DNA from: Flectonema sp. DT1601
Taxonomy: Eukaryota; Euglenozoa; Diplonemea; Diplonemida; Diplonemidae
Length of the DNA stretch: 64,000 bases
Reading direction: 5' to 3'
Assembly: GCA_964019425.1 (NCBI GenBank)
Contig: OZ025848.1
Location: forward strand, 62,001 to 126,000
Positions 1,069 to 19,498 of this stretch are shown one piece after another (position 1 is the first letter of the stretch; the number at the start of each line of letters is the position of its first letter). A program made the translations under genes and the position numbers. Below the pieces are notes generated by a model. It did not search any database. It saw only the letters and a program-made list of their open reading frames with translations, and was not told where the DNA came from.

Positions 1069-1478
1069 AACCTTAAAAAGTAGTTACCCCAGGTAATTAG
1101 AAATTGTGTGGCTTTTAGAACTACCAACCAGTACTAACAGAAATGCTTGCTTGCGGGTAGGGAAGTAAAGGGGAAGAATTTGCAGCAAATTTTATTTATT
1201 TTGAAGGGTGGGGCTGGGGCTCGGTCTTAGCTTTAACGTTAACATGGGAGCGGCGAAAATTACGTCTTTCGGGGAGAAAAGCCAAAAAAAAAAAAATAAA
1301 TTAAAAATTTTTACATAAAAATATAGGAAACACGGCAAGTCTTTGTACATTTTCTTCTACTTGGCAAACACAAGTCCACGGACAATAAAAAGACCCCAAA
1401 GGAAGAAAATTCTTCCTAAGAGGTTAGCTAAATATTCCAAGCAAGCTCGGATGTTGAGACTGTACCAATAAAGTACAG

Positions 1479-1653
1479 TAATTGCGCTTGCCTTCCATAT
1501 CATGCACCTGACGAATGAAATGTATAGATGAAACTAATTAAACTAATAAAACAAACTAATGGATCAAACTAGCAAACACAGAGAAGCTGTCTAAGACAGT
1601 TTATTGCGTTGGGGTAGTGGCTGGTGCCCGTTTCGATTCGGCGTGACACCGGC
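1479..1653. repeat. Split repeat A1 of retroelement copy 1
   Basis: 175 bp, identical to 2043-2217. It begins TAATTGCGC at the element edge. On the coding strand it is the 3' terminal repeat. Confidence 0.9.
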
Positions 1654-1672
1654 CGGAGGGATGGAGGGTGGG

Positions 1673-2042
1673 TTTTTCTTTTACTTTTAGTGGTGAGATG
1701 TGACAAAGTGGCAAATAACTGCAAAAGTAAAAGAATAAATTTATTAGAATCCAAATTATTTAAACTATAACAAAAAGACAACTTAGCACCAAAACTCCAT
1801 GATTTTTTACTGCTAACTGAATTAGCAGCCGAACGCCTAGATTTCAAAACCAGATTGCCTACTAAAAGGAGTCCCTTCCCATCCTATTATACCTTATCTA
1901 TCTTTCCTAAACCTGCTTATGCGCAGAAATCCAGCATCTTTTCCTTGGGCAAAAACCTTTCTTACTTTTCTAGTAAGAAAGTTTTCTGCCTAAATTCTGG
2001 TGCATTTTGGATGGCTGCGCAATTACTGAAATAAATTTGCAA
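1673..2042. repeat. Split repeat B1 of retroelement copy 1
   Basis: 370 bp, matching 6245-6614. It is followed without any gap by A2, so the B-A join at 2042/2043 reproduces the junction expected when the two outer ends of the element are joined in a circle. Confidence 0.9.
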
Positions 2043-2051
2043 TAATTGCGC
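2017..2051. promoter_or_regulatory. Candidate tyrosine-recombinase site at the B1-A2 junction
   Basis: Nine-base inverted arms GCGCAATTA (2017-2025) and TAATTGCGC (2043-2051) flank 17 nt. The joint at 2042/2043 falls exactly at the edge of the right arm. The same 35 bp recurs at 8025-8059 and 14901-14935. The two arms also sit at the two outer ends of each element, so circularisation would regenerate the site. Its function as a crossover site is inferred from the layout. Confidence 0.55.
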
Positions 2052-2217
2052 TTGCCTTCCATATCATGCACCTGACGAATGAAATGTATAGATGAAACTA
2101 ATTAAACTAATAAAACAAACTAATGGATCAAACTAGCAAACACAGAGAAGCTGTCTAAGACAGTTTATTGCGTTGGGGTAGTGGCTGGTGCCCGTTTCGA
2201 TTCGGCGTGACACCGGC
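2043..2217. repeat. Split repeat A2 of retroelement copy 1
   Basis: Second 175-bp A repeat. The RT/RNase H ORF terminates inside it at 2155. Confidence 0.9.
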
Positions 2218-5196
2218 TCCGCCACCCCGTCGCGAGTTGAAGAAGCCCCCGAGCGCAAGTTCGACCTTCGCCCTCGTCTCCGAGGTGATAGGCTCCCTCG
2301 AGGGGATGTCTGCGGGGTTATACTTTGTGCTCACCCATTGAAGTGTGAAAGAACATTTTAAACGAAGTAATTTTTCTATTGAAACTAAAATAAATGAATT
2401 AAGAGAGTGTGAGCGAGCACACATCTTCTTTCTGAACGATCCGCAGACCGTGGTGTTATCGACCCAGATGGACAAATGGTCCGCTCTAGTAATAGCGCTC
2501 AAAGTCTTCCCTAAGGCATCTGCCTCGAGAATGTTAATATGGCGTTCTTCGCCTAAAGGCCATTGGCCACCTAAGATTTCCATCTCTGCAGAGTCCCAAA
2601 CAATCACACCTCCCCAGCCCTTGAGCGAGGCATCGATAAAGACCTCTGCAGTTTTACCGACCTTCTCATCTGGTAAAATAGTACGTCCCTTCTGGACTTG
2701 GTGCATCCACGCGCGCAGCTCAGCTTTCACTGAGTTTGGTAAAGAAATCTTTTCCGAAACAAGAATTGCTCCTCGATTGAGCTTATTAGTAAGTCTTCGC
2801 AGAAACTTCATTGCAAACCAGAACCTACCAGGAGGGACTCCTGATATGGCACTAGCATGCAAAAGCCTGCCCGAAAGAGATTCTGCTGCTGCTGCAGTTA
2901 TGCAGTTCAAATTGCAAGCTTTTATTCTTTTAGTAATCTTTTCACCTAAAGAAACTTCCCTAGTAGGATGTGAGAAAAATGCACCTAAAAATTCGTATTC
3001 AGTGCCTAAATTAACAGTATCTTGTACCTTCCAGGTTGCGTTGCAAAGCCTGGCAAACTCGTCCATTCTATTCGTGGCCTCTCGGACCCTTTCTTTATCC
3101 CCATAAATCCTTATATTATCTATCCACCAATCAATTTTCACTTGCTTTTCTGCAGATTCTGGCCTAACAAACAAGGGGTCGCCAGAAACTACTGCAGTAA
3201 TCGTATTCATAATTTCGGGCGCACAAACGTGCCCCATCGGTAATCTGGTTAGCGCGAACCAGTCCCCCGAGGCATCCTCGAAGGTAAAAAGAGGTCTCGA
3301 AGCCTCTGGAATAAGTATCTGATAAAAACCTGTTTTAAAGTCTCTTAAAGAAGCTACTTCTGAGTGCACTGCACCTAAGTACTTCGAGATATGTTGTAAA
3401 GGTACAAACGGTTCATATCCAGTCTCGTAAATCTTCTCGTTCTCTTCCTTAGTCCACAAGATAAAGCGCTGCCTATCTCCTGTCTCCCTTTCCTCGAAAG
3501 CTGTGAAAGGCACGTTCCTGGACTTAGAAAGTTCCTTCTTAAAAGGTACTGCAATTTTACACCTTACTAACTCCTTAGAGTGAAGACAGGAAAGCTTTGT
3601 TTTTTGAAAAGAATTTTGGGTTTTTTTATCTTTCAGGTGGGGAGTGGTGGAATGGTTGGAGGGAGAACGGGATGAGTGTCTCGAAGGGTCGTTAGGGAGC
3701 GCCGGTTCGAGTCTGGGAGGGGGATTCTTCTCTCTATTTTTACCTAAACTTTTCAGATTTCCTGCATTTTTAAATGTCAAGTCCCAAGTCTCGTTGAAAC
3801 GCTCTAGGACGCTCGGAAGCATCCGGTCTTTGATTATTTGAATATCCATCGGCTGTACGATCGCTGCGTGTAATGGGGCCGACTTCTCGTAGCTCGTACT
3901 CGGTATCCTTGTTGACTTAGCCCTGTGTGTGAACTGAGCCCCCATTTTTCTTATCAGTTTTATAGGAACTTCGTCACTAAGGATGTCTTCAGGGCCCGAG
4001 CGGTGGCGATTGCGTTCCCTCCGTATCTTATTGTTGTACTTGAGATCGCCGACGTCGTCGAGTGCTTTGCAAGGCGGCTTATCAGCTCTTCCTTCAGGTC
4101 GCATCCGCTCGCGAGGAGCTCTAGTAAGGTGCTTATTGCGCCTCTTTTTATCGAGTGGGCTGTATAGGTTTTCATAATACTGTCTTCCTTCCACTCCTTT
4201 ACTAGTCGTGATGTGTCCCACGGATGTAAGGTTTCGAATTCTTCTATTTCCGTCAGTCCATCCGCTATTTCCTCCACGAGATCCCCGACCAACACGGCCC
4301 ATCTGCTCGGGTAGAACGGATTGCCTCTGCGGCCCTTTGGTGTGGTTGCCCAATCTATTATTATTTCTTCCTTTGAAATTAGTATAAACTGCTCCCTTGC
4401 TAGTCCTGCTGTCTCTCCCCATCGTGCGGCTGCCTTCCAGCTGATGAGCATCGCGACTCTCGTCCTCGTACATTGTTTCATCGCCCATCCTACTAAGTGC
4501 TCCCTCTTCATGGGGATTGCTTGCTGAGTTGGAATGTTCCCTCCTGCTGCTCTGATTGCTGCTGCTAAGGTTAAAAGTGGCTTGCTGTCCATTCCCATCT
4601 TCCCCATCAGGGCTGACAGGTGCTTTGAATATGTAAGAAGCGCCGATTCCGCTGCTCCCGTTGCCATCACGAAGAGAACAGCTGTGTCCCCATTGACTTG
4701 TAGGTTCTGGCTGCCTGCCCAATTTATCAGTCTCTTCCAGAGCTGCTTCCTGCTGGAAGTGGTCTCCTTTGCCCACATCTTCTCCATTGTCTCTCCAAGT
4801 CTTTCTGTTGCTTGGAGCACTCCCACAGAGTCTTCCTTCTGATTTCTGCTCAGGGCAGAGGGCTCCACTATGTCTAGAAGGACATTTTGGATCACCCCTG
4901 AAGAGTCCCCTCTGGGTTCTTCCTCCACTTTTTCTACTAAGTCTGTCTTTTCCAGATTTTTGAGATTCTTTGAATTTTCCCTGACTAGACTTAGAGATGA
5001 GATACTTTTTGAAATTGCCATCCCAGGCTTTCCCGGGGTATACCTGCGCATTAGACCAATTACTTTGAGATTTCTCTGAATTTTCAGTGTTCCTCTTTCT
5101 ATTTCTACCTGCTTCTTTACCTTCAATATTTGTAGCAAGTTTCCCGAGGCTCTTGCTCTCCTCACTGGCAGTGTAGGGCTGGACGTCGCCAGTCAT
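2155..5196 (-). CDS. Retroelement copy 1: reverse transcriptase/RNase H ORF
   Basis: Open frame of 1013 codons whose first ~410 codons overlap the tyrosine-recombinase ORF in another frame. That part probably reflects the frame of the recombinase gene rather than a domain of its own. The downstream ~600 codons carry the RT, with FYQILIPE and LPMG-type motifs near residues 620-655 and the palm segment near 689. They also carry an RNase H with FIDASLKGWGG near 850, an EAD segment and WVDNTT further on. Extensive overlap of recombinase and RT ORFs is known in DIRS-type elements. The ORF begins at an ATG overlapping the gag stop (ATGA). The product would copy the element RNA. Confidence 0.88.
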   Translation of the reverse strand: MTGDVQPYTASEESKSLGKLATNIEGKEAGRNRKRNTENSEKSQSNWSNAQVYPGKAWDGNFKKYLISKSSQGKFKESQKSGKDRLSRKSGGRTQRGLFRGDPKCPSRHSGALCPEQKSEGRLCGSAPSNRKTWRDNGEDVGKGDHFQQEAALEETDKLGRQPEPTSQWGHSCSLRDGNGSSGIGASYIFKAPVSPDGEDGNGQQATFNLSSSNQSSRREHSNSASNPHEEGALSRMGDETMYEDESRDAHQLEGSRTMGRDSRTSKGAVYTNFKGRNNNRLGNHTKGPQRQSVLPEQMGRVGRGSRGGNSGWTDGNRRIRNLTSVGHITTSKGVEGRQYYENLYSPLDKKRRNKHLTRAPRERMRPEGRADKPPCKALDDVGDLKYNNKIRRERNRHRSGPEDILSDEVPIKLIRKMGAQFTHRAKSTRIPSTSYEKSAPLHAAIVQPMDIQIIKDRMLPSVLERFNETWDLTFKNAGNLKSLGKNREKNPPPRLEPALPNDPSRHSSRSPSNHSTTPHLKDKKTQNSFQKTKLSCLHSKELVRCKIAVPFKKELSKSRNVPFTAFEERETGDRQRFILWTKEENEKIYETGYEPFVPLQHISKYLGAVHSEVASLRDFKTGFYQILIPEASRPLFTFEDASGDWFALTRLPMGHVCAPEIMNTITAVVSGDPLFVRPESAEKQVKIDWWIDNIRIYGDKERVREATNRMDEFARLCNATWKVQDTVNLGTEYEFLGAFFSHPTREVSLGEKITKRIKACNLNCITAAAAESLSGRLLHASAISGVPPGRFWFAMKFLRRLTNKLNRGAILVSEKISLPNSVKAELRAWMHQVQKGRTILPDEKVGKTAEVFIDASLKGWGGVIVWDSAEMEILGGQWPLGEERHINILEADALGKTLSAITRADHLSIWVDNTTVCGSFRKKMCARSHSLNSFILVSIEKLLRLKCSFTLQWVSTKYNPADIPSREPITSETRAKVELALGGFFNSRRGGGAGVTPNRNGHQPLPQRNKLS
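3960..5165 (-). CDS. Retroelement copy 1: tyrosine recombinase (YR)
   Basis: About 400 codons. It shows the tyrosine recombinase signature in order: Arg in AARWGE (about residue 248), H-x-x-R in HSIKRGA (about 337-341) and the nucleophile Tyr in TTIRYGG (about 381). The position between gag and RT/RH is that of VIPER and TATE, whereas DIRS, Ngaro and PAT place it after RT/RH. It should join the circular DNA intermediate to the SL exon. The start codon is unclear: the long frame opens at a GTG. Confidence 0.87.
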   Translation of the reverse strand: MRRARASGNLLQILKVKKQVEIERGTLKIQRNLKVIGLMRRYTPGKPGMAISKSISSLSLVRENSKNLKNLEKTDLVEKVEEEPRGDSSGVIQNVLLDIVEPSALSRNQKEDSVGVLQATERLGETMEKMWAKETTSSRKQLWKRLINWAGSQNLQVNGDTAVLFVMATGAAESALLTYSKHLSALMGKMGMDSKPLLTLAAAIRAAGGNIPTQQAIPMKREHLVGWAMKQCTRTRVAMLISWKAAARWGETAGLAREQFILISKEEIIIDWATTPKGRRGNPFYPSRWAVLVGDLVEEIADGLTEIEEFETLHPWDTSRLVKEWKEDSIMKTYTAHSIKRGAISTLLELLASGCDLKEELISRLAKHSTTSAISSTTIRYGGNAIATARALKTSLVTKFL

Positions 5197-6245
5197 TGTC
5201 CCCCAGCCCTTCCGTTTCCCTGTCCTCGCTGGAACGTCCTACGGAATGGAACATATCCTCCTTTTCTTCCTTTTGTACTTGCACTGCTTGTAAGGTTTCT
5301 GGTAATTGCTTTCTTCTTTGCCATAAGTACTGCATTAGCCTTCTGTAATGGATCATTAGCCTCTGTTTTAAGCTGATTGATTAGATCCGACCTCTTTGTC
5401 CCATTCATGCAATACATATTCTGAATCTTCAAATCTCTCAACAAGTTATTTCCTAATGAGACTGCATTCTCGTTCTTGTCCCATCCTGGGATGAATTCCA
5501 TAGCTAATATGAATCTTTCTAAGTTATTGTAATAATTCTCTAGCAACTCAACCCCTGGTCCAGGGGGAACTCTTCCTACGAATTTTGATTCCAGTTTAAT
5601 CAGCAAGATCTCTGTCAGCCGTTGTTCCATGATTGGAATCCAGTCTAAAACACTATTCGTGTCTAATACAGCAGACTGCATCTGTGAATCTTCTTCTCCA
5701 CCTTGATGAGTACCTTGCTGAGGCGCTGCAGGAAGCACTGGTGGTGGTACAGGCTGTGGCCCCTGATGTGGTGTATTTTGAAAATGCTGCTGGAGCTGTT
5801 GCTGTAATTGTTGCTGAAGCTGCTGCTGAAACTGCAGTTGAGACTGTTGAAACTGCTGGAACTGATCTTTAATTCCAATTACTTCTTGTTTGAGGATGTT
5901 TGTCTCATGCGAACGCACCTCGCTCTCTTGTCGAACTGCAGCATCCCGCTTCTGACTTTCTTCCCTCGTGCGTGCTATCACGGCAGCTGCGATTCCTGGT
6001 TCGATTTCACTCACATTAGGAGCTTCTAATACATCTATTTTGATACATCCTGTTTGTCCCAGTTCCCTAACAGTTTTACTCATAGCTTGGTTATAAATTC
6101 CACCCTTGCCTGCTCTGTCAATCTTCACTATTCCTTCTAATGGTAAATCATTAACGAAGAAGGCCCTAACTTTGTGGCCCATTGTGCTTGCTAGAAATCC
6201 TTCAATCTCATCATCATTCATGCACTTAATAGTTGCAGTAGTCAT
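5193..6245 (-). CDS. Retroelement copy 1: gag-like protein
   Basis: 350 aa from the ATG at 6245, which lies exactly at the inner edge of repeat B2; the frame is also open upstream within the repeat but without an ATG. A globular N-terminal part (begins MTTATIKCMNDDEIEGF) is followed by a charged coiled-coil-like stretch and a glutamine-rich run (about residues 135-165). A second globular part and a basic Gly/Arg/Gln-rich tail (FRRTFQRGQGNGRAGG) follow, the tail being suited to RNA binding. I see no zinc knuckle. The gag assignment rests on position and composition. Confidence 0.75.
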   Translation of the reverse strand: MTTATIKCMNDDEIEGFLASTMGHKVRAFFVNDLPLEGIVKIDRAGKGGIYNQAMSKTVRELGQTGCIKIDVLEAPNVSEIEPGIAAAVIARTREESQKRDAAVRQESEVRSHETNILKQEVIGIKDQFQQFQQSQLQFQQQLQQQLQQQLQQHFQNTPHQGPQPVPPPVLPAAPQQGTHQGGEEDSQMQSAVLDTNSVLDWIPIMEQRLTEILLIKLESKFVGRVPPGPGVELLENYYNNLERFILAMEFIPGWDKNENAVSLGNNLLRDLKIQNMYCMNGTKRSDLINQLKTEANDPLQKANAVLMAKKKAITRNLTSSASTKGRKGGYVPFRRTFQRGQGNGRAGGQ

Positions 6246-6614
6246 TTTTCTTTTACTTTTAGTGGTGAGATGTGACAAAGTGGCAAATAACTGCAAAAGT
6301 AAAAGAATAAATTTATTAGAATCCAAATTATTTAAACTATAACAAAAAGACAACTTAGCACCAAAACTCCATGATTTTTTACTGCTAACTGAATTAGCAG
6401 CCGAACGCCTAGATTTCAAAACCAGATTGCCTACTAAAAGGAGTCCCTTCCCATCCTATTATACCTTATCTATCTTTCCTAAACCTGCTTATGCGCAGAA
6501 ATCCAGCATCTTTTCCTTGGGCAAAAACCTTTCTTACTTTTCTAGTAAGAAAGTTTTCTGCCTAAATTCTGGTGCATTTTGGATGGCTGCGCAATTACTG
6601 AAATAAATTTGCAA
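6245..6614. repeat. Split repeat B2 of retroelement copy 1
   Basis: 370 bp, the 5' terminal repeat on the coding strand. Its outer edge abuts SL exon nt 26. It contains GCGCAATTA at 6589-6597, 17 nt from the element edge. Confidence 0.9.
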
Positions 6615-7486
6615 AAACTGTAGCTTTAGAATCGTTGGTTAACCTTAAAAAGTAGTTACCCCAGGTAATTAGAAATTGTGTGGCTTTTAGAACTACCAAC
6701 CAGTACTAACAGAAATGCTTGCTTGCGGGTAGGGAAGTAAAGGGGAAGAATTTGCAGCAAATTTTATTTATTTTGAAGGGTGGGGCTGGGGCTCGGTCTT
6801 AGCTTTAACGTTAACATGGGAGCGGCGAAAATTACGTCTTTCGGGGAGAAAAGCCAAAAAAAAAAAAATAAATTAAAAATTTTTACATAAAAATATAGGA
6901 AACACGGCAAGTCTTTGTACATTTTCTTCTACTTGGCAAACACAAGTCCACGGACAATAAAAAAACCCCAAAGGAAGAAAATTCTTCCTAAGAGGTTAGC
7001 TAAATATTCCAAGCAAGCTCGGATGTTGAGACTGTACCAATAAAGTACAGAAACTGTAGCTTTAGAATCGTTGGTTAACCTTAAAAAGTAGTTACCCCAG
7101 GTAATTAGAAATTGTGTGGCTTTTAGAACTACCAACCAGTACTAACAGAAATGCTTGCTTGCGGGTAGGGAAGTAAAGGGGAAGAATTTGCAGCAAATTT
7201 TATTTATTTTGAAGGGTGGGGCTGGGGCTCGGTCTTAGCTTTAACGTTAACATGGGAGCGGCGAAAATTACGTCTTTCGGGGAGAAAAGCCAAAAAAAAA
7301 AAAATAAATTAAAAATTTTTACATAAAAATATAGGAAACACGGCAAGTCTTTGTACATTTTCTTCTACTTGGCAAACACAAGTCCACGGACAATAAAAAA
7401 ACCCCAAAGGAAGAAAATTCTTCCTAAGAGGTTAGCTAAATATTCCAAGCAAGCTCGGATGTTGAGACTGTACCAATAAAGTACAG
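6615..7486 (-). repeat. SL RNA gene tandem array, segment 2
   Basis: Remainder of the split unit (6615-6880), one full unit (6881-7316) and the first part of the unit split by copy 2 (7317-7486). Confidence 0.94.
6965..7076 (-). ncRNA. SL RNA gene between retroelement copies 1 and 2
   Basis: Intact SL gene, exon 7076 to 7038, identical to the first copy. It is the only intact SL gene between these two insertions. Confidence 0.92.
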
Positions 7487-8162
7487 TAATTGCGCTTGCC
7501 TTCCATATCATGCACCTGACGAATGAAATGTATAGATGAAACTAATTAAACTAATAAAACAAACTAATGGATCAAACTAGCAAACACAGAGAAGCTGTCT
7601 AAGACAGTTTATTGCGTTGGGGTAGTGGCTGGTGCCCGTTTCGATTCGGCGTGACACCGGCCGGAGGGATGGAGGGTGGGTTTTTCTTTTACTTTTAGTG
7701 GTGAGATGTGACAAAGTGGCAAATAACTGCAAAAGTAAAAGAATAAATTTATTAGAATCCAAATTATTTAAACTATAACAAAAAGACAAATTAGCACCAA
7801 AACTCCATGATTTTTTACTGCTAACTGAATTAGCAGCCGAACACCTAGATTTCAAAACAAGATTGCCTACTAAAAGGAGTCCTTTCTCATCCTATTATAC
7901 CTTATCTATCTTTCCTAAACCTGCTTATGCGCAGAAATCCAGCATCTTTTCCTTGGGCAAAAACCTTTCTTACTTTTCTAGTAAGAAAGTTTTCTGCCTA
8001 AATTCTGGTGCATTTTGGATGGCTGCGCAATTACTGAAATAAATTTGCAATAATTGCGCTTGCCTTCCATATCATGCACCTGACGAATGAAATGTATAGA
8101 TGAAACTAATTAAACTAATAAAACAAACTAATGGATCAAACTAGCAAACACAGAGAAGCTGT

Positions 8163-11100
8163 CTAAGACAGTTTATTGCGTTGGGGTAGTGGCTGGTGCC
8201 CGTTTCGATTCGGCGTGACACCGGCTCCGCCACCCCGTCGCGAGTTGAAGAAGCCCCCGAGCGCAAGTTCGACCTTCGCCCTCGTTTCCGAGGTGATAGG
8301 CTCCCTCGAGGGGATGTCTGCGGGGTTATACTTTGTGCTCACCCATTGAAGTGTGAAAGAACATTTTAAACGAAGTAATTTTTCTATTGAAACTAAAATA
8401 AATGAATTAAGAGAGTGTGAGCGAGCACACATCTTCTTTCTGAACGATCCGCAGACCGTGGTGTTATCGACCCAGATGGACAAATGGTCCGCTCTAGTAA
8501 TAGCGCTCAAAGTCTTCCCTAAGGCATCTGCCTCGAGAATGTTAATATGGCGTTCTTCGCCTAAAGGCCATTGGCCACCTAAGATTTCCATCTCTGCAGA
8601 GTCCCAAACAATCACACCTCCCCAGCCCTTGAGCGAGGCATCGATAAAGACCTCCGCAGTTTTACCGACCTTCTCATCTGGTAAAATAGTACGTCCCTTC
8701 TGGACTTGGTGCATCCACGCGCGCAGCTCAGCTTTCACTGAGTTTGGTAAAGAAGTCTTTTCTGAAACAAGAATTGCTCCTCGATTGAGCTTATTAGTAA
8801 GTCTTCGCAGAAACTTCATTGCAAACCAGAACCTACCAGGAGGGACCCCCGATATGGCACTAGCATGCAAAAGCCTGCCCGAAAGAGATTCTGCTGCTGC
8901 TGCAGTTATGCAGTTCAAATTGCAAGCTTTTATTCTTTTAGTAATCTTTTCACCTAAAGAAACTTCCCTAGTAGGATGTGAGAAAAATGCACCTAAAAAT
9001 TCGTATTCAGTGCCTAAATTAACAGTATCTTGTACCTTCCAGGTTGCGTTGCAAAGCCTGGCAAACTCGTCCATTCTATTCGTGGCCTCTCGGACCCTTT
9101 CTTTATCCCCATAAATCCTTATATTATCTATCCACCAATCAATTTTCACTTGCTTTTCTGCAAATTCTGGCCTAACAAACAAGGGGTCGCCAGAAACTAC
9201 TGCAGTAATCGTATTCATAATTTCGGGCGCACAAACGTGCCCCATCGGTAATCTGGTTAGCGCGAACCAGTCCCCCGAGGCATCCTCGAAGGTAAAAAGA
9301 GGTCTCGAAGCCTCTGGAATAAGTATCTGATAAAAACCTGTTTTAAAGTCTCTTAAAGAAGCTACTTCTGAGTGCACTGCACCTAAGTACTTCGAGATAT
9401 GTTGTAAAGGTACAAACGGTTCATATCCAGTCTCGTAAATCTTCTCGTTCTCTTCCTTAGTCCACAAGATAAAGCGCTGCCTATCTCCTGTCTCCCTTTC
9501 CTCGAAAACTGTGAAAGGCACGTTCCTGGACTTAGAAAGTTCCTTCTTAAAAGGTACTGCAATTTTACACCTTACTAACTCCTTAGAGTGAAGACAGGAA
9601 AGCTTTGTCTTTTGAAAAGAATTTTGGGTTTTTTTATCTTTCAGGTGGGGAGTGGTGGAATGGTTGGCGGGAGAACGGGATGAGTGTCTCGAAGGGTCGT
9701 TAGGGAGCGCCGGTTCGAGTCTGGGAGGGGGATTCTTCTCTCTATTTTTACCTAAACTTTTCAGGTTTCCTGCATTTTTAAATGTCAAGTCCCAAGTCTC
9801 GTTGAAACGCTCTAGGACGCTCGGAAGCATCCGGTCTTTGATTATTTGAATATCCATCGGCTGTACGATCGCTGCGTGTAATGGGGCCGACTTCTCGTAG
9901 CTCGTACTCGGTATCCTTGTTGACTTAGCCCTGTGTGTGAACTGAGCCCCCATTTTTCTTATCAGTTTTATAGGAACTTCGTCACTAAGGATGTCTTCAG
10001 GGCCCGAGCGGTGGCGATTGCGTTCCCTCCGTATCTTATTGTTGTATTTGAGATCGCCGACGTCGTCGAGTGCTTTGCAAGGCGGCTTATCAGCTCTTCC
10101 TTCAGGTCGCATCCGCTCGCGAGGAGCTCTAGTAAGGTGCTTATTGCGCCTCTTTTTATCGAGTGGGCTGTATAGGTTTTCATAATACTGTCTTCCTTCC
10201 ACTCTTTTACTAGTCGTGATGTGTCCCACGGATGTAAGGTTTCGAATTCTTCTATTTCCGTCAGTCCATCCGCTATTTCCTCCACGAAATCCCCGACCAA
10301 CACGGCCCATCTGCTCGGGTAGAACGGATTGCCTCTGCGGCCCTTTGGTGTGGTTGCCCAATCTATTATTATTTCTTCCTTTGAAATTAGTATAAACTGC
10401 TCCCTTGCTAGTCCTGCTGTCTCTCCCCATCGTGCGGCTGCCTTCCAGCTGATGAGCATCGCGACTCTCGTCCTCGTACATTGTTTCATCGCCCATCCTA
10501 CTAAGTGCTCCCTCTTCATGGGGATTGCTTGCTGAGTTGGAATGTTCCCTCCTGCTGCTCTGATTGCTGCTGCTAAGGTTAAAAGTGGCTTGCTGTCCAT
10601 TCCCATCTTCCCCATCAGGGCTGACAGGTGCTTTGAATATGTAAGAAGCGCCGATTCCGCTGCTCCCGTTGCCATCACGAAGAGAACAGCTGTGTCCCCA
10701 TTGACTTGTAGGTTCTGGCTGCCTGCCCAATTTATCAGTCTCTTCCAGAGCTGCTTCCTGCTGGAAGTGGTCTCCTTTGTCCACATCTTCTCCATTGTCT
10801 CTCCAAGTCTTTCTGTTGCTTGGAGCACTCCCACAGAGTCTTCCTTCTGATTTCTGCTCAGGGCAGAGGGCTCCACTATGTCTAGAAGGACATTTTGGAT
10901 CACCCCTGAAGAGTCCCTTCTGGGTTCTTCCTCCACTTTTTCTACTAAGTCTGTCTTTTCCAGATTTTTGAGATTCTTTGAATTTTCCCTGACTGGACTT
11001 AGAGATGAGATACTTTTTGAAATTGCCATCCCAGGCTTTCCCGGGGTATACCTGCGCATTAGACCGATTACTTTGAGATTTCTCTGAATTTTCAGTGTTC

Positions 11101-11204
11101 CTCTTTCTATTTCTACCTGCTTCTTTACCTTCAATATTTGTAGCAAGTTTCCCGAGGCTCTTGCTCTCCTCACTGGCAGTGTAGGGCTGGACGTCGCCAG
11201 TCAT
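8163..11204 (-). CDS. Retroelement copy 2: reverse transcriptase/RNase H ORF
   Basis: Same 1013-codon frame as in copy 1, with a handful of amino-acid differences. RT and RNase H motifs are at the same positions. Confidence 0.87.
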   Translation of the reverse strand: MTGDVQPYTASEESKSLGKLATNIEGKEAGRNRKRNTENSEKSQSNRSNAQVYPGKAWDGNFKKYLISKSSQGKFKESQKSGKDRLSRKSGGRTQKGLFRGDPKCPSRHSGALCPEQKSEGRLCGSAPSNRKTWRDNGEDVDKGDHFQQEAALEETDKLGRQPEPTSQWGHSCSLRDGNGSSGIGASYIFKAPVSPDGEDGNGQQATFNLSSSNQSSRREHSNSASNPHEEGALSRMGDETMYEDESRDAHQLEGSRTMGRDSRTSKGAVYTNFKGRNNNRLGNHTKGPQRQSVLPEQMGRVGRGFRGGNSGWTDGNRRIRNLTSVGHITTSKRVEGRQYYENLYSPLDKKRRNKHLTRAPRERMRPEGRADKPPCKALDDVGDLKYNNKIRRERNRHRSGPEDILSDEVPIKLIRKMGAQFTHRAKSTRIPSTSYEKSAPLHAAIVQPMDIQIIKDRMLPSVLERFNETWDLTFKNAGNLKSLGKNREKNPPPRLEPALPNDPSRHSSRSPANHSTTPHLKDKKTQNSFQKTKLSCLHSKELVRCKIAVPFKKELSKSRNVPFTVFEERETGDRQRFILWTKEENEKIYETGYEPFVPLQHISKYLGAVHSEVASLRDFKTGFYQILIPEASRPLFTFEDASGDWFALTRLPMGHVCAPEIMNTITAVVSGDPLFVRPEFAEKQVKIDWWIDNIRIYGDKERVREATNRMDEFARLCNATWKVQDTVNLGTEYEFLGAFFSHPTREVSLGEKITKRIKACNLNCITAAAAESLSGRLLHASAISGVPPGRFWFAMKFLRRLTNKLNRGAILVSEKTSLPNSVKAELRAWMHQVQKGRTILPDEKVGKTAEVFIDASLKGWGGVIVWDSAEMEILGGQWPLGEERHINILEADALGKTLSAITRADHLSIWVDNTTVCGSFRKKMCARSHSLNSFILVSIEKLLRLKCSFTLQWVSTKYNPADIPSREPITSETRAKVELALGGFFNSRRGGGAGVTPNRNGHQPLPQRNKLS
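9968..11173 (-). CDS. Retroelement copy 2: tyrosine recombinase (YR)
   Basis: Open frame of the same length as in copy 1. The AARWGE, HSIKRGA and TTIRYGG signatures are all present. Confidence 0.86.
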   Translation of the reverse strand: MRRARASGNLLQILKVKKQVEIERGTLKIQRNLKVIGLMRRYTPGKPGMAISKSISSLSPVRENSKNLKNLEKTDLVEKVEEEPRRDSSGVIQNVLLDIVEPSALSRNQKEDSVGVLQATERLGETMEKMWTKETTSSRKQLWKRLINWAGSQNLQVNGDTAVLFVMATGAAESALLTYSKHLSALMGKMGMDSKPLLTLAAAIRAAGGNIPTQQAIPMKREHLVGWAMKQCTRTRVAMLISWKAAARWGETAGLAREQFILISKEEIIIDWATTPKGRRGNPFYPSRWAVLVGDFVEEIADGLTEIEEFETLHPWDTSRLVKEWKEDSIMKTYTAHSIKRGAISTLLELLASGCDLKEELISRLAKHSTTSAISNTTIRYGGNAIATARALKTSLVTKFL

Positions 11205-12249
11205 TGTCCCCCAGCCCTTCCGTTTCCCTGTCCTCGCTGGAACGTCCTACGGAATGGAACATATCCTCCTTTTCTTCCTTTTGTACTTGCACTGCTTGTA
11301 AGGTTTCTGGTAATTGCTTTCTTCTTTGCCATAAGTACTGCATTAGCCTTCTGTAATGGATCATTAGCCTCTGTTTTAAGCTGATTGATTAGATCCGACC
11401 TCTTTGTCCCATTCATGCAATACATATTCTGAATCTTCAAATCTCTCAACAAGTTATTTCCTAATGAGACTGCATTCTCGTTCTTGTCCCATCCTGGGAT
11501 GAATTCCATAGCTAATATGAATCTTTCTAAGTTATTGTAATAATTCTCTAGCAACTCAACCCCTGGTCCAGGGGGAACTCTTCCTACAAATTTTGATTCC
11601 AGCTTAATCAGCAAGATCTCAGTCAGCCGTTGTTCCATGATTGGAATCCAGTCTAAAACACTATTCGTGTCTAATACAGCAGACTGCATCTGTGAATCTT
11701 CTTCTCCACCTTGCTGAGTACCTTGCTGAGGCGCTGCAGGAAGCACTGGTGGTGGTACAGGCTGTGGCCCCTGCGAGGTCTGCTGATGTGGTGTATTTTG
11801 AAAATGCTGCTGGAGCTGTTGCTGTAATTGTTGCTGAAGCTGCTGCTGAAATGAAACTGCTGGAACTGATCTTTAATTCCAATTACTTCTTGTTTGAGGA
11901 TGTTTGTCTCATGCGAACGCACCTCGCTCTCTTGTCGAACTGCAGCATCCCGCTTCTGACTTTCTTCCCTCGTGCGTGCTATCACGGCAGCTGCGATTCC
12001 TGGTTCGATTTCACTCACATTAGGAGCTTCTAATACATCTATTTTGATACATCCTGTTTGTCCCAGTTCCCTAACAGTTTTACTCATAGCTTGGTTATAA
12101 ATTCCACCCTTGCCTGCTCTGTCAATCTTCACTATTCCTTCTAATGGTAAATCATTAACGAAGAAGGCCCTAACTTTGTGGCCCATTGTGCTTGCTAGAA
12201 ATCCTTCAATCTCATCATCATTCATGCACTTAATAGTTGCAGTAGTCAT
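11201..12249 (-). pseudogene. Retroelement copy 2: gag region, broken
   Basis: Corresponds to the gag ORF of copies 1 and 3, starting at the inner edge of B2. The reading frame is not continuous here (about one break). The rest of the region is closely similar to the other copies. Confidence 0.8.
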
Positions 12250-12968
12250 TTTTCTTTTACTTTTAGTGGTGAGATGTGACAAAGTGGCAAATAACTGCAA
12301 AAGTAAAAGAATAAATTTATTAGAATCCAAATTATTTAAACTATAACAAAAAGACAAATTAGCACCAAAACTCCATGATTTTTTACTGCTAACTGAATTA
12401 GCAGCCGAACACCTAGATTTCAAAACAAGATTGCCTACTAAAAGGAGTCCTTTCTCATCCTATTATACCTTATCTATCTTTCCTAAACCTGCTTATGCGC
12501 AGAAATCCAGCATCTTTTCCTTGGGCAAAAACCTTTCTTACTTTTCTAGTAAGAAAGTTTTCTGCCTAAATTCTGGTGCATTTTGGATGGCTGCGCAATT
12601 ACTGAAATAAATTTGCAAAAACTGTAGCTTTAGAATCGTTGGTTAACCTTAAAAAGTAGTTACCCCAGGTAATTAGAAATTGTGTGGCTTTTAGAACTAC
12701 CAACCAGTACTAACAGAAATGCTTGCTTGCGGGTAGGGAAGTAAAGGGGAAGAATTTGCAGCAAATTTTATTTATTTTGAAGGGTGGGGCTGGGGCTCGG
12801 TCTTAGCTTTAACGTTAACATGGGAGCGGCGAAAATTACGTCTTTCGGGGAGAAAAGCCAAAAAAAAAAAAATAAATTAAAAATTTTTACATAAAAATAT
12901 AGGAAACACGGCAAGTCTTTGTACATTTTCTTCTACTTGGCAAACACAAGTCCACGGACAATAAAAAA

Positions 12969-13080
12969 ACCCCAAAGGAAGAAAATTCTTCCTAAGAGGT
13001 TAGCTAAATATTCCAAGCAAGCTCGGATGTTGAGACTGTACCAATAAAGTACAGAAACTGTAGCTTTAGAATCGTTGGTT
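12969..13080 (-). ncRNA. SL RNA gene, segment 3 unit 1
   Basis: Intact SL exon (13080 to 13042), donor and T-run. Confidence 0.92.
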
Positions 13081-13404
13081 AACCTTAAAAAGTAGTTACC
13101 CCAGGTAATTAGAAATTGTGTGGCTTTTAGAACTACCAACCAGTACTAACAGAAATGCTTGCTTGCGGGTAGGGAAGTAAAGGGGAAGAATTTGCAGCAA
13201 ATTTTATTTATTTTGAAGGGTGGGGCTGGGGCTCGGTCTTAGCTTTAACGTTAACATGGGAGCGGCGAAAATTACGTCTTTCGGGGAGAAAAGCCAAAAA
13301 AAAAAAAATAAATTAAAAATTTTTACATAAAAATATAGGAAACACGGCAAGTCTTTGTACATTTTCTTCTACTTGGCAAACACAAGTCCACGGACAATAA
13401 AAAA

Positions 13405-13516
13405 ACCCCAAAGGAAGAAAATTCTTCCTAAGAGGTTAGCTAAATATTCCAAGCAAGCTCGGATGTTGAGACTGTACCAATAAAGTACAGAAACTGTAGC
13501 TTTAGAATCGTTGGTT
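13405..13516 (-). ncRNA. SL RNA gene, segment 3 unit 2
   Basis: Intact SL exon (13516 to 13478), donor and T-run. Confidence 0.92.
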
Positions 13517-13840
13517 AACCTTAAAAAGTAGTTACCCCAGGTAATTAGAAATTGTGTGGCTTTTAGAACTACCAACCAGTACTAACAGAAATGCTTGCTT
13601 GCGGGTAGGGAAGTAAAGGGGAAGAATTTGCAGCAAATTTTATTTATTTTGAAGGGTGGGGCTGGGGCTCGGTCTTAGCTTTAACGTTAACATGGGAGCG
13701 GCGAAAATTACGTCTTTCGGGGAGAAAAGCCAAAAAAAAAAAAATAAATTAAAAATTTTTACATAAAAATATAGGAAACACGGCAAGTCTTTGTACATTT
13801 TCTTCTACTTGGCAAACACAAGTCCACGGACAATAAAAAA

Positions 13841-13952
13841 ACCCCAAAGGAAGAAAATTCTTCCTAAGAGGTTAGCTAAATATTCCAAGCAAGCTCGGAT
13901 GTTGAGACTGTACCAATAAAGTACAGAAACTGTAGCTTTAGAATCGTTGGTT
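13841..13952 (-). ncRNA. SL RNA gene, segment 3 unit 3
   Basis: Intact SL exon (13952 to 13914), donor and T-run. Confidence 0.92.
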
Positions 13953-15038
13953 AACCTTAAAAAGTAGTTACCCCAGGTAATTAGAAATTGTGTGGCTTTT
14001 AGAACTACCAACCAGTACTAACAGAAATGCTTGCTTGCGGGTAGGGAAGTAAAGGGGAAGAATTTGCAGCAAATTTTATTTATTTTGAAGGGTGGGGCTG
14101 GGGCTCGGTCTTAGCTTTAACGTTAACATGGGAGCGGCGAAAATTACGTCTTTCGGGGAGAAAAGCCAAAAAAAAAAAAATAAATTAAAAATTTTTACAT
14201 AAAAATATAGGAAACACAGCAAGTCTTTGTACATTTTCTTCTACTTGGCAAACACAAGTCCACGGACAATAAAAAAACCCCAAAGGAAGAAAATTCTTCC
14301 TAAGAGGTTAGCTAAATATTCCAAGCAAGCTCGGATGTTGAGACTGTACCAATAAAGTACAGTAATTGCGCTTGCCTTCCATATCATGCACCTGACGAAT
14401 GAAATGTATAGATGAAACTAATTAAACTAATAAAACAAACTAATGGATCAAACTAGCAAACACAGAGAAGCTGTCTAAGAAAGTTTATTGCGTTGGGGTA
14501 GTGGCTGGTGCCCGTTTCGATTCGGCGTGACACCGGCCGGAGGGATGGAGGGTGGGTTTTTCTTTTACTTTTAGTGGTGAGATGTGACAAAGTGGCAAAT
14601 AACTGCAAAAGTAAAAGAATAAATTTATTAGAATCCAAATTATTTAAACTATAACAAAAAGACAACTTAGCACCAAAACTCCATGATTTTTTACTGCTAA
14701 CTGAATTAGCAGCCGAACGCCTAGATTTCAAAACCAGATTGCCTACTAAAAGGAGTCCCTTCCCATCCTATTATACCTTATCTATCTTTCCTAAACCTGC
14801 TTATGCGCAGAAATCCAGCATCTTTTCCTTGGGCAAAAACCTTTCTTACTTTTCTAGTAAGAAAGTTTTCTGCCTAAATTCTGGTGCATTTTGGATGGCT
14901 GCGCAATTACTGAAATAAATTTGCAATAATTGCGCTTGCCTTCCATATCATGCACCTGACGAATGAAATGTATAGATGAAACTAATTAAACTAATAAAAC
15001 AAACTAATGGATCAAACTAGCAAACACAGAGAAGCTGT

Positions 15039-18000
15039 CTAAGACAGTTTATTGCGTTGGGGTAGTGGCTGGTGCCCGTTTCGATTCGGCGTGACACCGG
15101 CTCCGCCACCCCGTCGCGAGTTGAAGAAGCCCCCGAGCGCAAGTTCGACCTTCGCCCTCGTCTCCGAGGTGATAGGCTCCCTCGAGGGGATGTCTGCGGG
15201 GTTATACTTTGTGCTCACCCATTGAAGTGTGAAAGAACATTTTAAACGAAGTAATTTTTCTATTGAAACTAAAATAAATGAATTAAGAGAGTGTGAGCGA
15301 GCACACATCTTCTTTCTGAACGATCCGCAGACCGTGGTGTTATCGACCCAGATGGACAAATGGTCCGCTCTAGTAATAGCGCTCAAAGTCTTCCCTAAGG
15401 CATCTGCCTCGAGAATGTTAATATGGCGTTCTTCGCCTAAAGGCCATTGGCCACCTAAGATTTCCATCTCTGCAGAGTCCCAAACAATCACACCTCCCCA
15501 GCCCTTGAGCGAGGCATCGATAAAGACCTCTGCAGTTTTACCGACCTTCTCATCTGGTAAAATAGTACGTCCCTTCTGGACTTGGTGCATCCACGCGCGC
15601 AGCTCAGCTTTCACTGAGTTTGGTAAAGAAATCTTTTCCGAAACAAGAATTGCTCCTCGATTGAGCTTATTAGTAAGTCTTCGCAGAAACTTCATTGCAA
15701 ACCAGAACCTACCAGGAGGGACTCCTGATATGGCACTAGCATGCAAAAGCCTGCCCGAAAGAGATTCTGCTGCTGCTGCAGTTATGCAGTTCAAATTGCA
15801 AGCTTTTATTCTTTTAGTAATCTTTTCACCTAAAGAAACTTCCCTAGTAGGATGTGAGAAAAATGCACCTAAAAATTCGTATTCAGTGCCTAAATTAACA
15901 GTATCTTGTACCTTCCAGGTTGCGTTGCAAAGCCTGGCAAACTCGTCCATTCTATTCGTGGCCTCTCGGACCCTTTCTTTATCCCCATAAATCCTTATAT
16001 TATCTATCCACCAATCAATTTTCACTTGCTTTTCTGCAGATTCTGGCCTAACAAACAAGGGGTCGCCAGAAACTACTGCAGTAATCGTATTCATAATTTC
16101 GGGCGCACAAACGTGCCCCATCGGTAATCTGGTTAGCGCGAACCAGTCCCCCGAGGCATCCTCGAAGGTAAAAAGAGGTCTCGAAGCCTCTGGAATAAGT
16201 ATCTGATAAAAACCTGTTTTAAAGTCTCTTAAAGAAGCTACTTCTGAGTGCACTGCACCTAAGTACTTCGAGATATGTTGTAAAGGTACAAACGGTTCAT
16301 ATCCAGTCTCGTAAATCTTCTCGTTCTCTTCCTTAGTCCACAAGATAAAGCGCTGCCTATCTCCTGTCTCCCTTTCCTCGAAAACTGTGAAAGGCACGTT
16401 CCTGGACTTAGAAAGTTCCTTCTTAAAAGGTACTGCAATTTTACACCTTACTAACTCCTTAGAGTGAAGACAGGAAAGCTTTGTTTTTTGAAAAGAATTT
16501 TGGGTTTTTTTATCTTTCAGGTGGGGAGTGGTGGAATGGTTGGAGGGAGAACGGGATGAGTGTCTCGAAGGGTCGTTAGGGAGCGCCGGTTCGAGTCTGG
16601 GAGGGGGATTCTTCTCTCTATTTTTACCTAAACTTTTCAGATTTCTTGCATTTTTAAATGTCAAGTCCCAAGTCTCGTTGAAACGCTCTAGGACGCTCGG
16701 AAGCATCCGGTCTTTGATTATTTGAATATCCATCGGCTGTACGATCGCTGCGTGTAATGGGGCCGACTTCTCGTAGCTCGTACTCGGTATCCTTGTTGAC
16801 TTAGCCCTGTGTGTGAACTGAGCCCCCATTTTTCTTATCAGTTTTATAGGAACTTCGTCACTAAGGATGTCTTCAGGGCCCGAGCGGTGGCGATTGCGTT
16901 CCCTCCGTATCTTATTGTTGTACTTGAGATCGCCGACGTCGTCGAGTGCTTTGCAAGGCGGCTTATCAGCTCTTCCTTCAGGTCGCATCCGCTCGCGAGG
17001 AGCTCTAGTAAGGTGCTTATTGCGCCTCTTTTTATCGAGTGGGCTGTATAGGTTTTCATAATACTGTCTTCCTTCCACTCCTTTACTAGTCGTGATGTGT
17101 CCCACGGATGTAAGGTTTCGAATTCTTCTATTTCCGTCAGTCCATCCGCTATTTCCTCCACGAGATCCCCGACCAACACGGCCCATCTGCTCGGGTAGAA
17201 CGGATTGCCTCTGCGGCCCTTTGGTGTGGTTGCCCAATCTATTATTATTTCTTCCTTTGAAATTAGTATAAACTGCTCCCTTGCTAGTCCTGCTGTCTCT
17301 CCCCATCGTGCGGCTGCCTTCCAGCTGATGAGCATCGCGACTCTCGTCCTCGTACATTGTTTCATCGCCCATCCTACTAAGTGCTCCCTCTTCATGGGGA
17401 TTGCTTGCTGAGTTGGAATGTTCCCTCCTGCTGCTCTGATTGCTGCTGCTAAGGTTAAAAGTGGCTTGCTGTCCATTCCCATCTTCCCCATCAGGGCTGA
17501 CAGGTGCTTTGAATATGTAAGAAGCGCCGATTCCGCTGCTCCCGTTGCCATCACGAAGAGAACAGCTGTGTCCCCATTGACTTGTAGGTTCTGGCTGCCT
17601 GCCCAATTTATCAGTCTCTTCCAGAGCTGCTTCCTGCTGGAAGTGGTCTCCTTTGCCCACATCTTCTCCATTGTCTCTCCAAGTCTTTCTGTTGCTTGGA
17701 GCACTCCCACAGAGTCTTCCTTCTGATTTCTGCTCAGGGCAGAGGGCTCCACTATGTCTAGAAGGACATTTTGGATCACCCCTGAAGAGTCCCTTCTGGG
17801 TTCTTCCTCCACTTTTTCTACTAAGTCTGTCTTTTCCAGATTTTTGAGATTCTTTGAATTTTCCCTGACTAGACTTAGAGATGAGATACTTTTTGAAATT
17901 GCCATCCCAGGCTTTCCCGGGGTATACCTGCGCATTAGACCAATTACTTTGAGATTTCTCTGAATTTTCAGTGTTCCTCTTTCTATTTCTACCTGCTTCT

Positions 18001-18080
18001 TTACCTTCAATATTTGTAGCAAGTTTCCCGAGGCTCTTGCTCTCCTCACTGGCAGTGTAGGGCTGGACGTCGCCAGTCAT
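15039..18080 (-). CDS. Retroelement copy 3: reverse transcriptase/RNase H ORF
   Basis: 1013-codon frame nearly identical to copy 1, with the same RT and RNase H motifs. It ends inside repeat A2. Confidence 0.87.
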   Translation of the reverse strand: MTGDVQPYTASEESKSLGKLATNIEGKEAGRNRKRNTENSEKSQSNWSNAQVYPGKAWDGNFKKYLISKSSQGKFKESQKSGKDRLSRKSGGRTQKGLFRGDPKCPSRHSGALCPEQKSEGRLCGSAPSNRKTWRDNGEDVGKGDHFQQEAALEETDKLGRQPEPTSQWGHSCSLRDGNGSSGIGASYIFKAPVSPDGEDGNGQQATFNLSSSNQSSRREHSNSASNPHEEGALSRMGDETMYEDESRDAHQLEGSRTMGRDSRTSKGAVYTNFKGRNNNRLGNHTKGPQRQSVLPEQMGRVGRGSRGGNSGWTDGNRRIRNLTSVGHITTSKGVEGRQYYENLYSPLDKKRRNKHLTRAPRERMRPEGRADKPPCKALDDVGDLKYNNKIRRERNRHRSGPEDILSDEVPIKLIRKMGAQFTHRAKSTRIPSTSYEKSAPLHAAIVQPMDIQIIKDRMLPSVLERFNETWDLTFKNARNLKSLGKNREKNPPPRLEPALPNDPSRHSSRSPSNHSTTPHLKDKKTQNSFQKTKLSCLHSKELVRCKIAVPFKKELSKSRNVPFTVFEERETGDRQRFILWTKEENEKIYETGYEPFVPLQHISKYLGAVHSEVASLRDFKTGFYQILIPEASRPLFTFEDASGDWFALTRLPMGHVCAPEIMNTITAVVSGDPLFVRPESAEKQVKIDWWIDNIRIYGDKERVREATNRMDEFARLCNATWKVQDTVNLGTEYEFLGAFFSHPTREVSLGEKITKRIKACNLNCITAAAAESLSGRLLHASAISGVPPGRFWFAMKFLRRLTNKLNRGAILVSEKISLPNSVKAELRAWMHQVQKGRTILPDEKVGKTAEVFIDASLKGWGGVIVWDSAEMEILGGQWPLGEERHINILEADALGKTLSAITRADHLSIWVDNTTVCGSFRKKMCARSHSLNSFILVSIEKLLRLKCSFTLQWVSTKYNPADIPSREPITSETRAKVELALGGFFNSRRGGGAGVTPNRNGHQPLPQRNKLS
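16844..18049 (-). CDS. Retroelement copy 3: tyrosine recombinase (YR)
   Basis: Open frame nearly identical to copy 1, with all three recombinase signatures. Confidence 0.87.
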   Translation of the reverse strand: MRRARASGNLLQILKVKKQVEIERGTLKIQRNLKVIGLMRRYTPGKPGMAISKSISSLSLVRENSKNLKNLEKTDLVEKVEEEPRRDSSGVIQNVLLDIVEPSALSRNQKEDSVGVLQATERLGETMEKMWAKETTSSRKQLWKRLINWAGSQNLQVNGDTAVLFVMATGAAESALLTYSKHLSALMGKMGMDSKPLLTLAAAIRAAGGNIPTQQAIPMKREHLVGWAMKQCTRTRVAMLISWKAAARWGETAGLAREQFILISKEEIIIDWATTPKGRRGNPFYPSRWAVLVGDLVEEIADGLTEIEEFETLHPWDTSRLVKEWKEDSIMKTYTAHSIKRGAISTLLELLASGCDLKEELISRLAKHSTTSAISSTTIRYGGNAIATARALKTSLVTKFL

Positions 18081-19129
18081 TGTCCCCCAGCCCTTCCGTT
18101 TCCCTGTCCTCGCTGGAACGTCCTACGGAATGGAACATATCCTCCTTTTCTTCCTTTTGTACTTGCACTGCTTGTAAGGTTTCTGGTAATTGCTTTCTTC
18201 TTTGCCATAAGTACTGCATTAGCCTTCTGTAATGGATCATTAGCCTCTGTTTTAAGCTGATTGATTAGATCCGACCTCTTTGTCCCATTCATGCAATACA
18301 TATTCTGAATCTTCAAATCTCTCAACAAGTTATTTCCTAATGAGACTGCATTCTCGTTCTTGTCCCATCCTGGGATGAATTCCATAGCTAATATGAATCT
18401 TTCTAAGTTATTGTAATAATTCTCTAGCAACTCAACCCCTGGTCCAGGGGGAACTCTTCCTACGAATTTTGATTCCAGTTTAATCAGCAAGATCTCTGTC
18501 AGCCGTTGTTCCATGATTGGAATCCAGTCTAAAACACTATTCGTGTCTAATACAGCAGACTGCATCTGTGAATCTTCTTCTCCACCTTGATGAGTACCTT
18601 GCTGAGGCGCTGCAGGAAGCACTGGTGGTGGTACAGGCTGTGGCCCCTGATGTGGTGTATTTTGAAAATGCTGCTGGAGCTGTTGCTGTAATTGTTGCTG
18701 AAGCTGCTGCTGAAACTGCAGTTGAGACTGTTGAAACTGCTGGAACTGATCTTTAATTCCAATTACTTCTTGTTTGAGGATGTTTGTCTCATGCGAACGC
18801 ACCTCGCTCTCTTGTCGAACTGCAGCATCCCGCTTCTGACTTTCTTCCCTCGTGCGTGCTATCACGGCAGCTGCGATTCCTGGTTCGATTTCACTCACAT
18901 TAGGAGCTTCTAATACATCTATTTTGATACATCCTGTTTGTCCCAGTTCCCTAACAGTTTTACTCATAGCTTGGTTATAAATTCCACCCTTGCCTGCTCT
19001 GTCAATCTTCACTATTCCTTCTAATGGTAAATCATTAACGAAGAAGGCCCTAACTTTGTGGCCCATTGTGCTTGCTAGAAATCCTTCAATCTCATCATCA
19101 TTCATGCACTTAATAGTTGCAGTAGTCAT
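18077..19129 (-). CDS. Retroelement copy 3: gag-like protein
   Basis: 350 aa from the ATG at the inner edge of repeat B2. Same Q-rich middle and Gly/Arg-rich tail as copy 1. Confidence 0.75.
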   Translation of the reverse strand: MTTATIKCMNDDEIEGFLASTMGHKVRAFFVNDLPLEGIVKIDRAGKGGIYNQAMSKTVRELGQTGCIKIDVLEAPNVSEIEPGIAAAVIARTREESQKRDAAVRQESEVRSHETNILKQEVIGIKDQFQQFQQSQLQFQQQLQQQLQQQLQQHFQNTPHQGPQPVPPPVLPAAPQQGTHQGGEEDSQMQSAVLDTNSVLDWIPIMEQRLTEILLIKLESKFVGRVPPGPGVELLENYYNNLERFILAMEFIPGWDKNENAVSLGNNLLRDLKIQNMYCMNGTKRSDLINQLKTEANDPLQKANAVLMAKKKAITRNLTSSASTKGRKGGYVPFRRTFQRGQGNGRAGGQ

Positions 19130-19498
19130 TTTTCTTTTACTTTTAGTGGTGAGATGTGACAAAGTGGCAAATAACTGCAAAAGTAAAAGAATAAATTTAT
19201 TAGAATCCAAATTATTTAAACTATAACAAAAAGACAACTTAGCACCAAAACTCCATGATTTTTTACTGCTAACTGAATTAGCAGCCGAACGCCTAGATTT
19301 CAAAACCAGATTGCCTACTAAAAGGAGTCCCTTCCCATCCTATTATACCTTATCTATCTTTCCTAAACCTGCTTATGCGCAGAAATCCAGCATCTTTTCC
19401 TTGGGCAAAAACCTTTCTTACTTTTCTAGTAAGAAAGTTTTCTGCCTAAATTCTGGTGCATTTTGGATGGCTGCGCAATTACTGAAATAAATTTGCAA

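Follow-up and report, generated by a model that had tools for sequence, protein, structure and literature searches.

A VIPER/TATE-like element family at a single base of the spliced leader RNA exon in the diplonemid Flectonema sp. DT1601

Elements in the spliced leader RNA gene array

The window analyzed here is a 64,000-nucleotide stretch of the genome of the diplonemid Flectonema sp. DT1601 (GenBank assembly GCA_964019425.1, contig OZ025848.1; C69:62001-126000 in our numbering). Its first part (1..35230, minus strand, right limit approximate) is a tandem array of spliced leader (SL) RNA genes in 436-bp units. The array holds 43 intact exon sites in a single orientation, the last beginning at 35187, and three more that are split by an inserted element. 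SL RNA is read from the minus strand, and the 39-nt exon, AACCAACGATTCTAAAGCTACAGTTT/CTGTACTTTATTG, is followed by GT. The slash marks the element joint, after nt 26 (between nt 26 and 27). A Euglenozoa SL consensus given in PMC3795323 differs from the interrupted exon at nt 12-13 only. An Rfam search of the window returned no match.

The three elements occupy 1479..6614 (copy 1, 5136 bp), 7487..12618 (copy 2, 5132 bp), and 14363..19498 (copy 3, 5136 bp), all on the minus strand and thus co-oriented with the SL genes. Each interrupts an SL unit between ...CCAATAAAGTACAG and AAACTGTAGC.... Comparison of these flanks with intact sites revealed neither target duplication nor base loss, confirming the three same-orientation insertions at nt 26/27 that a first, sequence-only reading of this DNA had described. 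That reading was also right that the insertions are unequally spaced, with one and then three intact SL units between successive copies, and that copy 2 stands apart. Relative to copy 1, copy 2 carries 32 substitutions and 28 gap columns, while copy 3 carries 4 substitutions. Its statement that the split units carry their own variants holds for the left flanking units, which vary by 1-2 substitutions, but not for the right ones, which vary by 0.

On the coding strand, copy 1 is ordered A1, gag-like open reading frame (ORF), tyrosine recombinase (YR) ORF, reverse transcriptase/RNase H (RT/RH) ORF, B1, A2, 19-bp linker, B2. The 370-bp repeat A1 (6245..6614, minus) forms the 5' end and is identical to A2 (1673..2042, minus). 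Repeat A2 immediately follows the 175-bp repeat B1 (2043..2217, minus), creating a circle-like junction, AATTA/TTGCAAAT. B1 is in turn identical to the 175-bp repeat B2 (1479..1653, minus), which forms the 3' end and is joined to SL nt 27. In every window copy, the two 370-bp repeats match exactly. So do the two 175-bp repeats of copies 1 and 2, whereas those of copy 3 differ at one base. Each of the five differences that separate copy 2 from copy 1 inside the 370-bp repeats recurs in both repeats (columns compared by hand), a mirrored pattern explained by reverse transcription of one template.

The gag-like ORF of copy 1 (5193..6245, minus; 350 aa) had no Pfam match. The presumed YR ORF (3960..5165, minus) encodes 363 aa from its first ATG (5051), with the frame open to 5165. 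The RT/RH ORF (2155..5196, minus) encodes 1013 aa, with the RT/RH domains at ~2155-3990. The same order of gag, YR, and RT/RH, with overlap of the last two, is found in copies 1 and 3 and likewise in copy 2, whose gag frame is broken but whose other two frames are open. The overlap extends up to ~1.2 kb (within 3960-5165) and involves the N-terminal half of the RT/RH ORF. As the RT/RH frame aligns with relatives P0002, P0003, P0004, and P0063 from residue 92-130 of 1013 onward, much of this overlap appears to be constrained as coding sequence in both frames.

Distribution and relationships of the copies

We refer to the SL-exon-inserted elements as the S family. Its terminal repeat ends were searched genome-wide (89.5 Mb, 92 contigs) at no more than 3 mismatches, such that older, more diverged ends would escape. 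This yielded 79 plus-strand starts and 80 ends, or 159 in total. All outer ends, 50 of 50 left and 51 of 51 right (101/101), lie at the SL nt 26/27 junction; the place C63:725640 was excluded from the SL-joined ends as an SL variant. The other 29 starts and 29 ends (58) are internal B1/A2 repeat junctions, leaving 0 of the 159 elsewhere. Insertion into the SL exon is exact, repeated, free of duplication, and exclusive among the ends found. The sequence-only reading had favored targeting over chance and proposed mapping all copies in search of unrelated flanks; the map rules out chance, supports targeting, and contains no such copy.

The identical SL junction occurs on 10 contigs. Mixed bases, as expected from heteroduplex repair, were absent from all 50 S joints, each of which reads exactly AATTA/CTGTAC. 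When AATTA directly followed by the SL sequence from nt 27 was searched for exactly, 51 places were recovered, 50 of them in the S family and one in a related family (D, below). A search of the genome with the RT, in which 72 of 550 candidates were scored, gave 112 rows. The 30 rows at or above 94% all fell within SL-array segments; the others were either long, at 61-67%, or short fragments, at 50-57%. Genome-wide, 724 SL sites are intact at no more than one mismatch (dispersed ones included) and 50 are occupied. As intact sites far outnumber occupied ones, the loss of SL genes should be bearable.

By nearest pairing, the insertions (n=50) comprise 19 of 5.1-5.3 kb, 21 shorter than 600 bp, and 10 of other lengths or unpaired. 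The 21 short insertions measure 475 bp in ten cases and 564 bp in seven, with four others. All ten 475-bp forms are on one contig (C20:1257822-1314961), where the SL array runs in two opposite orientations.

Could such a distribution arise without targeting, by random or loosely specific insertion followed by selection that purged every non-SL insertion? SL genes, of which there are hundreds, are plausibly a safe site. Selection could favor SL arrays, yet it would not favor one base and one orientation, at which all 101 outer ends lie, and related families survive at dispersed sites in the same genome. We regard this explanation as very improbable. An assembly artifact is more improbable still. 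Mis-joining is conceivable, as both the SL arrays and the elements consist of long repeats that are nearly identical, and several arrays lie near contig ends. However, the exact junction is found on 10 contigs in varied spacer backgrounds and with many element haplotypes (see below), and mis-joins would not strike one base without loss each time.

A more serious alternative holds that one or a few SL insertions gave rise to the rest through tandem duplication, unequal crossing-over, and ectopic gene conversion between SL arrays, with the element itself having little target specificity. The window array is strongly homogenized (3 haplotypes among 42 units), copies 1 and 3 are only 4 substitutions apart, and the 475-bp forms are confined to C20. 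To examine the surroundings of the insertions, 420-bp upstream sequences from 44 of the 50 left junctions were clustered at 97%, with gaps scored as differences. They formed 9 clusters with inter-cluster identities of 52-87%, apart from one pair at 97%. The insertion occurs in all of the seven spacer groups that share no more than 85%, and the spacer type next to an insertion is seen again in the units around it. Three junctions on C71 beyond the 44 show the same joint, bringing the left junctions read to 47 of 50.

Element relationships were compared across the 27 copies with an unbroken 564-bp start; the other 17 of the 44 were short or rearranged. These 27 copies comprise 23 haplotypes. Mapped onto the element tree, which is poorly resolved, spacer type required 15 changes, compared with a shuffled mean of 15.3, and a count as low was reached in 105 of 200 shuffles. 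Taken by themselves, the well-supported branches require 3-4 spacer changes in each of the four groups that were listed. Within this set, window copy 2 is closer to copies on C33 and C85 (no more than 2 differences) than to any other copy of its own array (5 or more). Window copies 1 and 3 differ from each other by 1 and from a copy on C22 by 2-3.

Some sharing is evident as well. The copies at C33:93352 and C33:72396 have an identical 564-bp haplotype within one spacer type, and three haplotypes are each found exactly in two spacer types. Together with the restriction of the 475-bp forms to one contig, these shared haplotypes indicate that duplication or conversion explains part of the copy number. 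As element relationships do not track the arrays and the spacers differ strongly, it accounts for only part of the S copies, possibly including copies 1 and 3. Tandem duplication of a single insertion, which the sequence-only reading had set aside, is ruled out as the sole cause by the seven spacer groups and by a tree that does not follow the array. Conversion would require both breakpoints to fall inside the short conserved exon region every time, and no S copies were found off SL sites. Multiplication of a few insertions is thus an unlikely account of the family as a whole.

Several further features of SL loci were observed. The SL-array contigs C69, C33, and C22 each start with a (GGGTTTGC)n repeat (positions 1-150; L073-L075). 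Its G-rich strand points inward, unlike a usual left-end telomere, and the repeat was not seen at the C63 and C20 ends that were read. Off the arrays, isolated SL exons at C16:1375050-1375200 (L079) and C1:559850-560000 (L078) resemble SL-tagged processed retrocopies, with L079 containing a tandem pair of SL exons, the second partial, ahead of ATG-containing sequence. Adjoining the SL array in the window, 36688-39468 (minus strand) encodes three proteins, with circularly permuted YpsA (SLOG), GNAT acetyltransferase, and YqaJ viral-type recombinase domains, respectively, which are possibly of bacterial or viral origin.

Encoded proteins, related families, and a proposed cycle

The protein relatives found by similarity searches include Diplonema papillatum genes, in keeping with a diplonemid host; no VIPER or TATE reference protein was among those returned. 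No relatives were found in viral contigs. Among aligned relatives of the YR, four of the catalytic columns are invariant, R248, K277, and H337 in 19/19 rows and Y381 in 18/18 rows with a residue, while Lys stands in place of the second catalytic Arg (see below). An integrase PHROG was matched by 16 of the 19 members (best 2.1e-06). Pfam and NCBIfam gave no convincing match for the YR, and a PDB profile search with it returned chance-level rows, some of them weak integrase rows. Taken together, element architecture, catalytic columns, and integrase-profile matches of relatives indicate that this ORF probably encodes a YR, in support of the tyrosine-recombinase assignment made at first sight. 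For the RT/RH protein, RVT_1 was matched by 5 of 11 aligned members (best 2.5e-05) and RNase H models by 4 of 11, and a PDB profile search gave a single RT/RH row (E = 0.0049). PF00336, a model of the C-terminal part of hepadnavirus polymerase, was hit weakly (E = 0.045, below cut-off), which does no more than echo the published RH grouping. No endonuclease domain turned up in Pfam scans of the three ORFs, and no further endonuclease search was made.

Three related families in the same genome, which we named B (ends taken from L043-L045), D (L046-L047), and E (L048-L049), provided a basis for comparison. The copies read are dispersed, with the exception of one D copy at the SL base. All four families, S included, end 3' in ...AATTA. 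This is followed by CT in 7 of 8 family-copy cases (S counted once), the exception being E in L049. For B and E, target preference was judged on five copies. In L044, a B element lies inside a tandem repeat, where inspection found no base duplicated or lost relative to neighboring units. Among the 100 places listed of 119, no B/E-type 3' end fell in a marked SL-array stretch, the nearest being C37:1038459 in a stretch without SL sites (L036). The exact search likewise found neither B nor E joined to SL nt 27.

The B1/A2 junction is bordered by inverted arms (AATTA ... TAATT) with a spacer of 17 bp in S, B, and E and 18 bp in D (by eye). These arms are putative YR binding sites. The junction bases are TTG in S compared with CTG in the target, and CTG in both for D, while B and E share little. 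We therefore do not claim a shared crossover overlap as a homology rule.

Copies bearing SL sequence reveal how element RNAs are processed. The D copy L046, in the C33 array, has the 3' end ...AATTA/CTGTAC, at the same SL base as S. Its 5' end is a full SL exon fused to ATTTCGAACC. In the dispersed copy L047, which is 99.96% identical over 4,855 columns, ATTTCGAACC instead follows ...TTATCAG, a splice acceptor. Three further rows of near-equal score in the RT search (on C15, C80, and C24, with that on C80 being L047) lie outside SL arrays. By hand arithmetic, the chance of a random insertion landing at one of the ~770 SL sites in the right orientation is ~4 in a million. An S copy on C85 has two SL-cDNA scars in the region where gag begins: one acceptor is joined to a complete SL exon, the second to an incomplete one. 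The corresponding inferred trans-splice acceptors in window copy 1 are ...TTTTGCAG/TTATTTG (6290..6291, minus) and ...CTAAAAG/TAAAAG (6255..6256, minus). These SL-exon fusions at acceptors show that the mRNAs of both the S and D families are trans-spliced and have undergone reverse transcription.

We consider it highly likely that a VIPER/TATE-like YR retrotransposon family became specific for the SL RNA exon, and propose the following cycle. A copy would be transcribed along with its host SL RNA gene from the SL promoter. The RT would copy this RNA, with the B1A2 segment templating the joining of ends into circular DNA with the junction AATTA/TTGCAAAT. Circular DNA intermediates are a feature of Ngaro/PAT-type elements. 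The YR would then exchange strands at AATTA/ to insert the circle, free of duplication, at the nt 26/27 position of a further SL exon, and would thereby be the agent choosing the target. As the 19 near-full-length S insertions keep the full outer A1 end, which trans-splicing would take away, their template must have been unspliced RNA. Because S insertions share the orientation of the SL genes that hold them, we infer that an SL-promoter transcript starting with SL nt 1-26 is the simplest source of this RNA.

Several observations weigh against this proposal. The second Arg of the HxxR motif is Lys in 19/19 YR relatives (HSIK-R), with an adjacent Arg in 18/19. Taken alone, the window YR matched the integrase PHROG weakly (E = 0.081), and the window RT protein matched RVT_1 at E = 0.085, below cut-off. 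Only TG of the first three target bases is shared with the S junction, which gives no recognition rule. The element tree is poorly resolved, with 3 of 20 inner branches well supported, and some S copies are exact duplicates. Finally, the circle, the element RNA, and the enzyme activities of the cycle are deduced from DNA sequence.

A more speculative scenario addresses how SL targeting arose. In a trans-splicing host, the element's cDNA itself bears the SL exon, and targeting would have arisen for this reason. A YR site in this exon could both home the element into SL genes and capture trans-spliced, 5'-incomplete cDNA, restoring an SL promoter and cap. On this view, the D copy L046 would be one such event, and a latent affinity for the SL base would run through the clade. 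We offer this origin tentatively and think it rather doubtful.

Comparison with known systems

The comparisons below draw on the consulted parts of the papers cited. By its split repeats and ORF order, that is, by architecture alone, the S family fits VIPER/TATE-like elements, while its single-base SL target is new. Among VIPER-like traits, it has the split repeats A1 ... B1 A2 B2 (370 + 175 bp) and no target-site duplication. TATE, the telomere-associated transposable element of kinetoplastids, like S, encodes Gag-like, YR, and RT/RH proteins in three ORFs, the last two overlapping (PMC6681497). Both share the A1 ... B1A2B2 arrangement, in which TATE of L. braziliensis has A of 381 bp and B of 294 bp compared with 370 and 175 bp in S (PMC6681497), and neither duplicates its target (PMC12278014). 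Each also has one fixed insertion position. For TATE this is reported to lie in the telomeric hexamer repeat (PMC6681497), whereas for S it lies in the SL RNA exon; none of the 101 outer S ends is in the hexamer repeats that define TATE sensu stricto. VIPER shares the S architecture, and SIRE, a short form of VIPER, is equivalent to the A2-B2 region, like the 564-bp solo forms described here (PMC6681497, PMC12278014). While S occupies one exact base, the consulted parts of these two papers name no exact target for VIPER.

Ngaro elements of Cafeteria are likewise YR retrotransposons with an A1-[ORFs]-B1A2B2 arrangement and solo AB repeats (PMC8547959). They differ from S in ORF order (gag-RT/RH-YR), in a YR with His-X-X-Arg, compared with His-X-X-Lys in S, and in a regional preference rather than a single base (PMC8547959). 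Indeed, Ngaro types 1 and 2a favor virophage loci (PMC8547959). As the YR precedes the RT/RH in S, the family is not Ngaro-like. For Ngaro and PAT, PMC6681497 refers to a model of reverse transcription. SLACS-like and TATE-like ORFs are noted in the Diplonema genome paper, where no target sites were found in the consulted part (PMC10161547).

The literature searched, mostly open access with few subscription papers, contained no published YR element in SL genes, in keeping with the novelty suggested by the sequence-only reading. To our knowledge, site choice by YR retrotransposons is little understood. A one-base family beside dispersed relatives in one genome makes it possible to map, by comparing them, what determines specificity. 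The target lies in the 3' part of the SL common to the Euglenozoa consensus lines consulted in PMC3795323, and such targeting could therefore be widespread.

Insertion into the SL exon was itself familiar, and S joins a set of elements that share this address. SLACS, CZAR, and CRE all insert there, SLACS at nt 11/12. These CRE-clade elements use LINE machinery and generate target duplications (PMC12278014), whereas S has a probable YR, split repeats, and no duplication, which places it outside the CRE clade. The convergence proposed in the sequence-only reading follows from this difference in integration machinery. SL genes, a haven for CRE-clade LINEs, have also been colonized by an element with a different integration chemistry.

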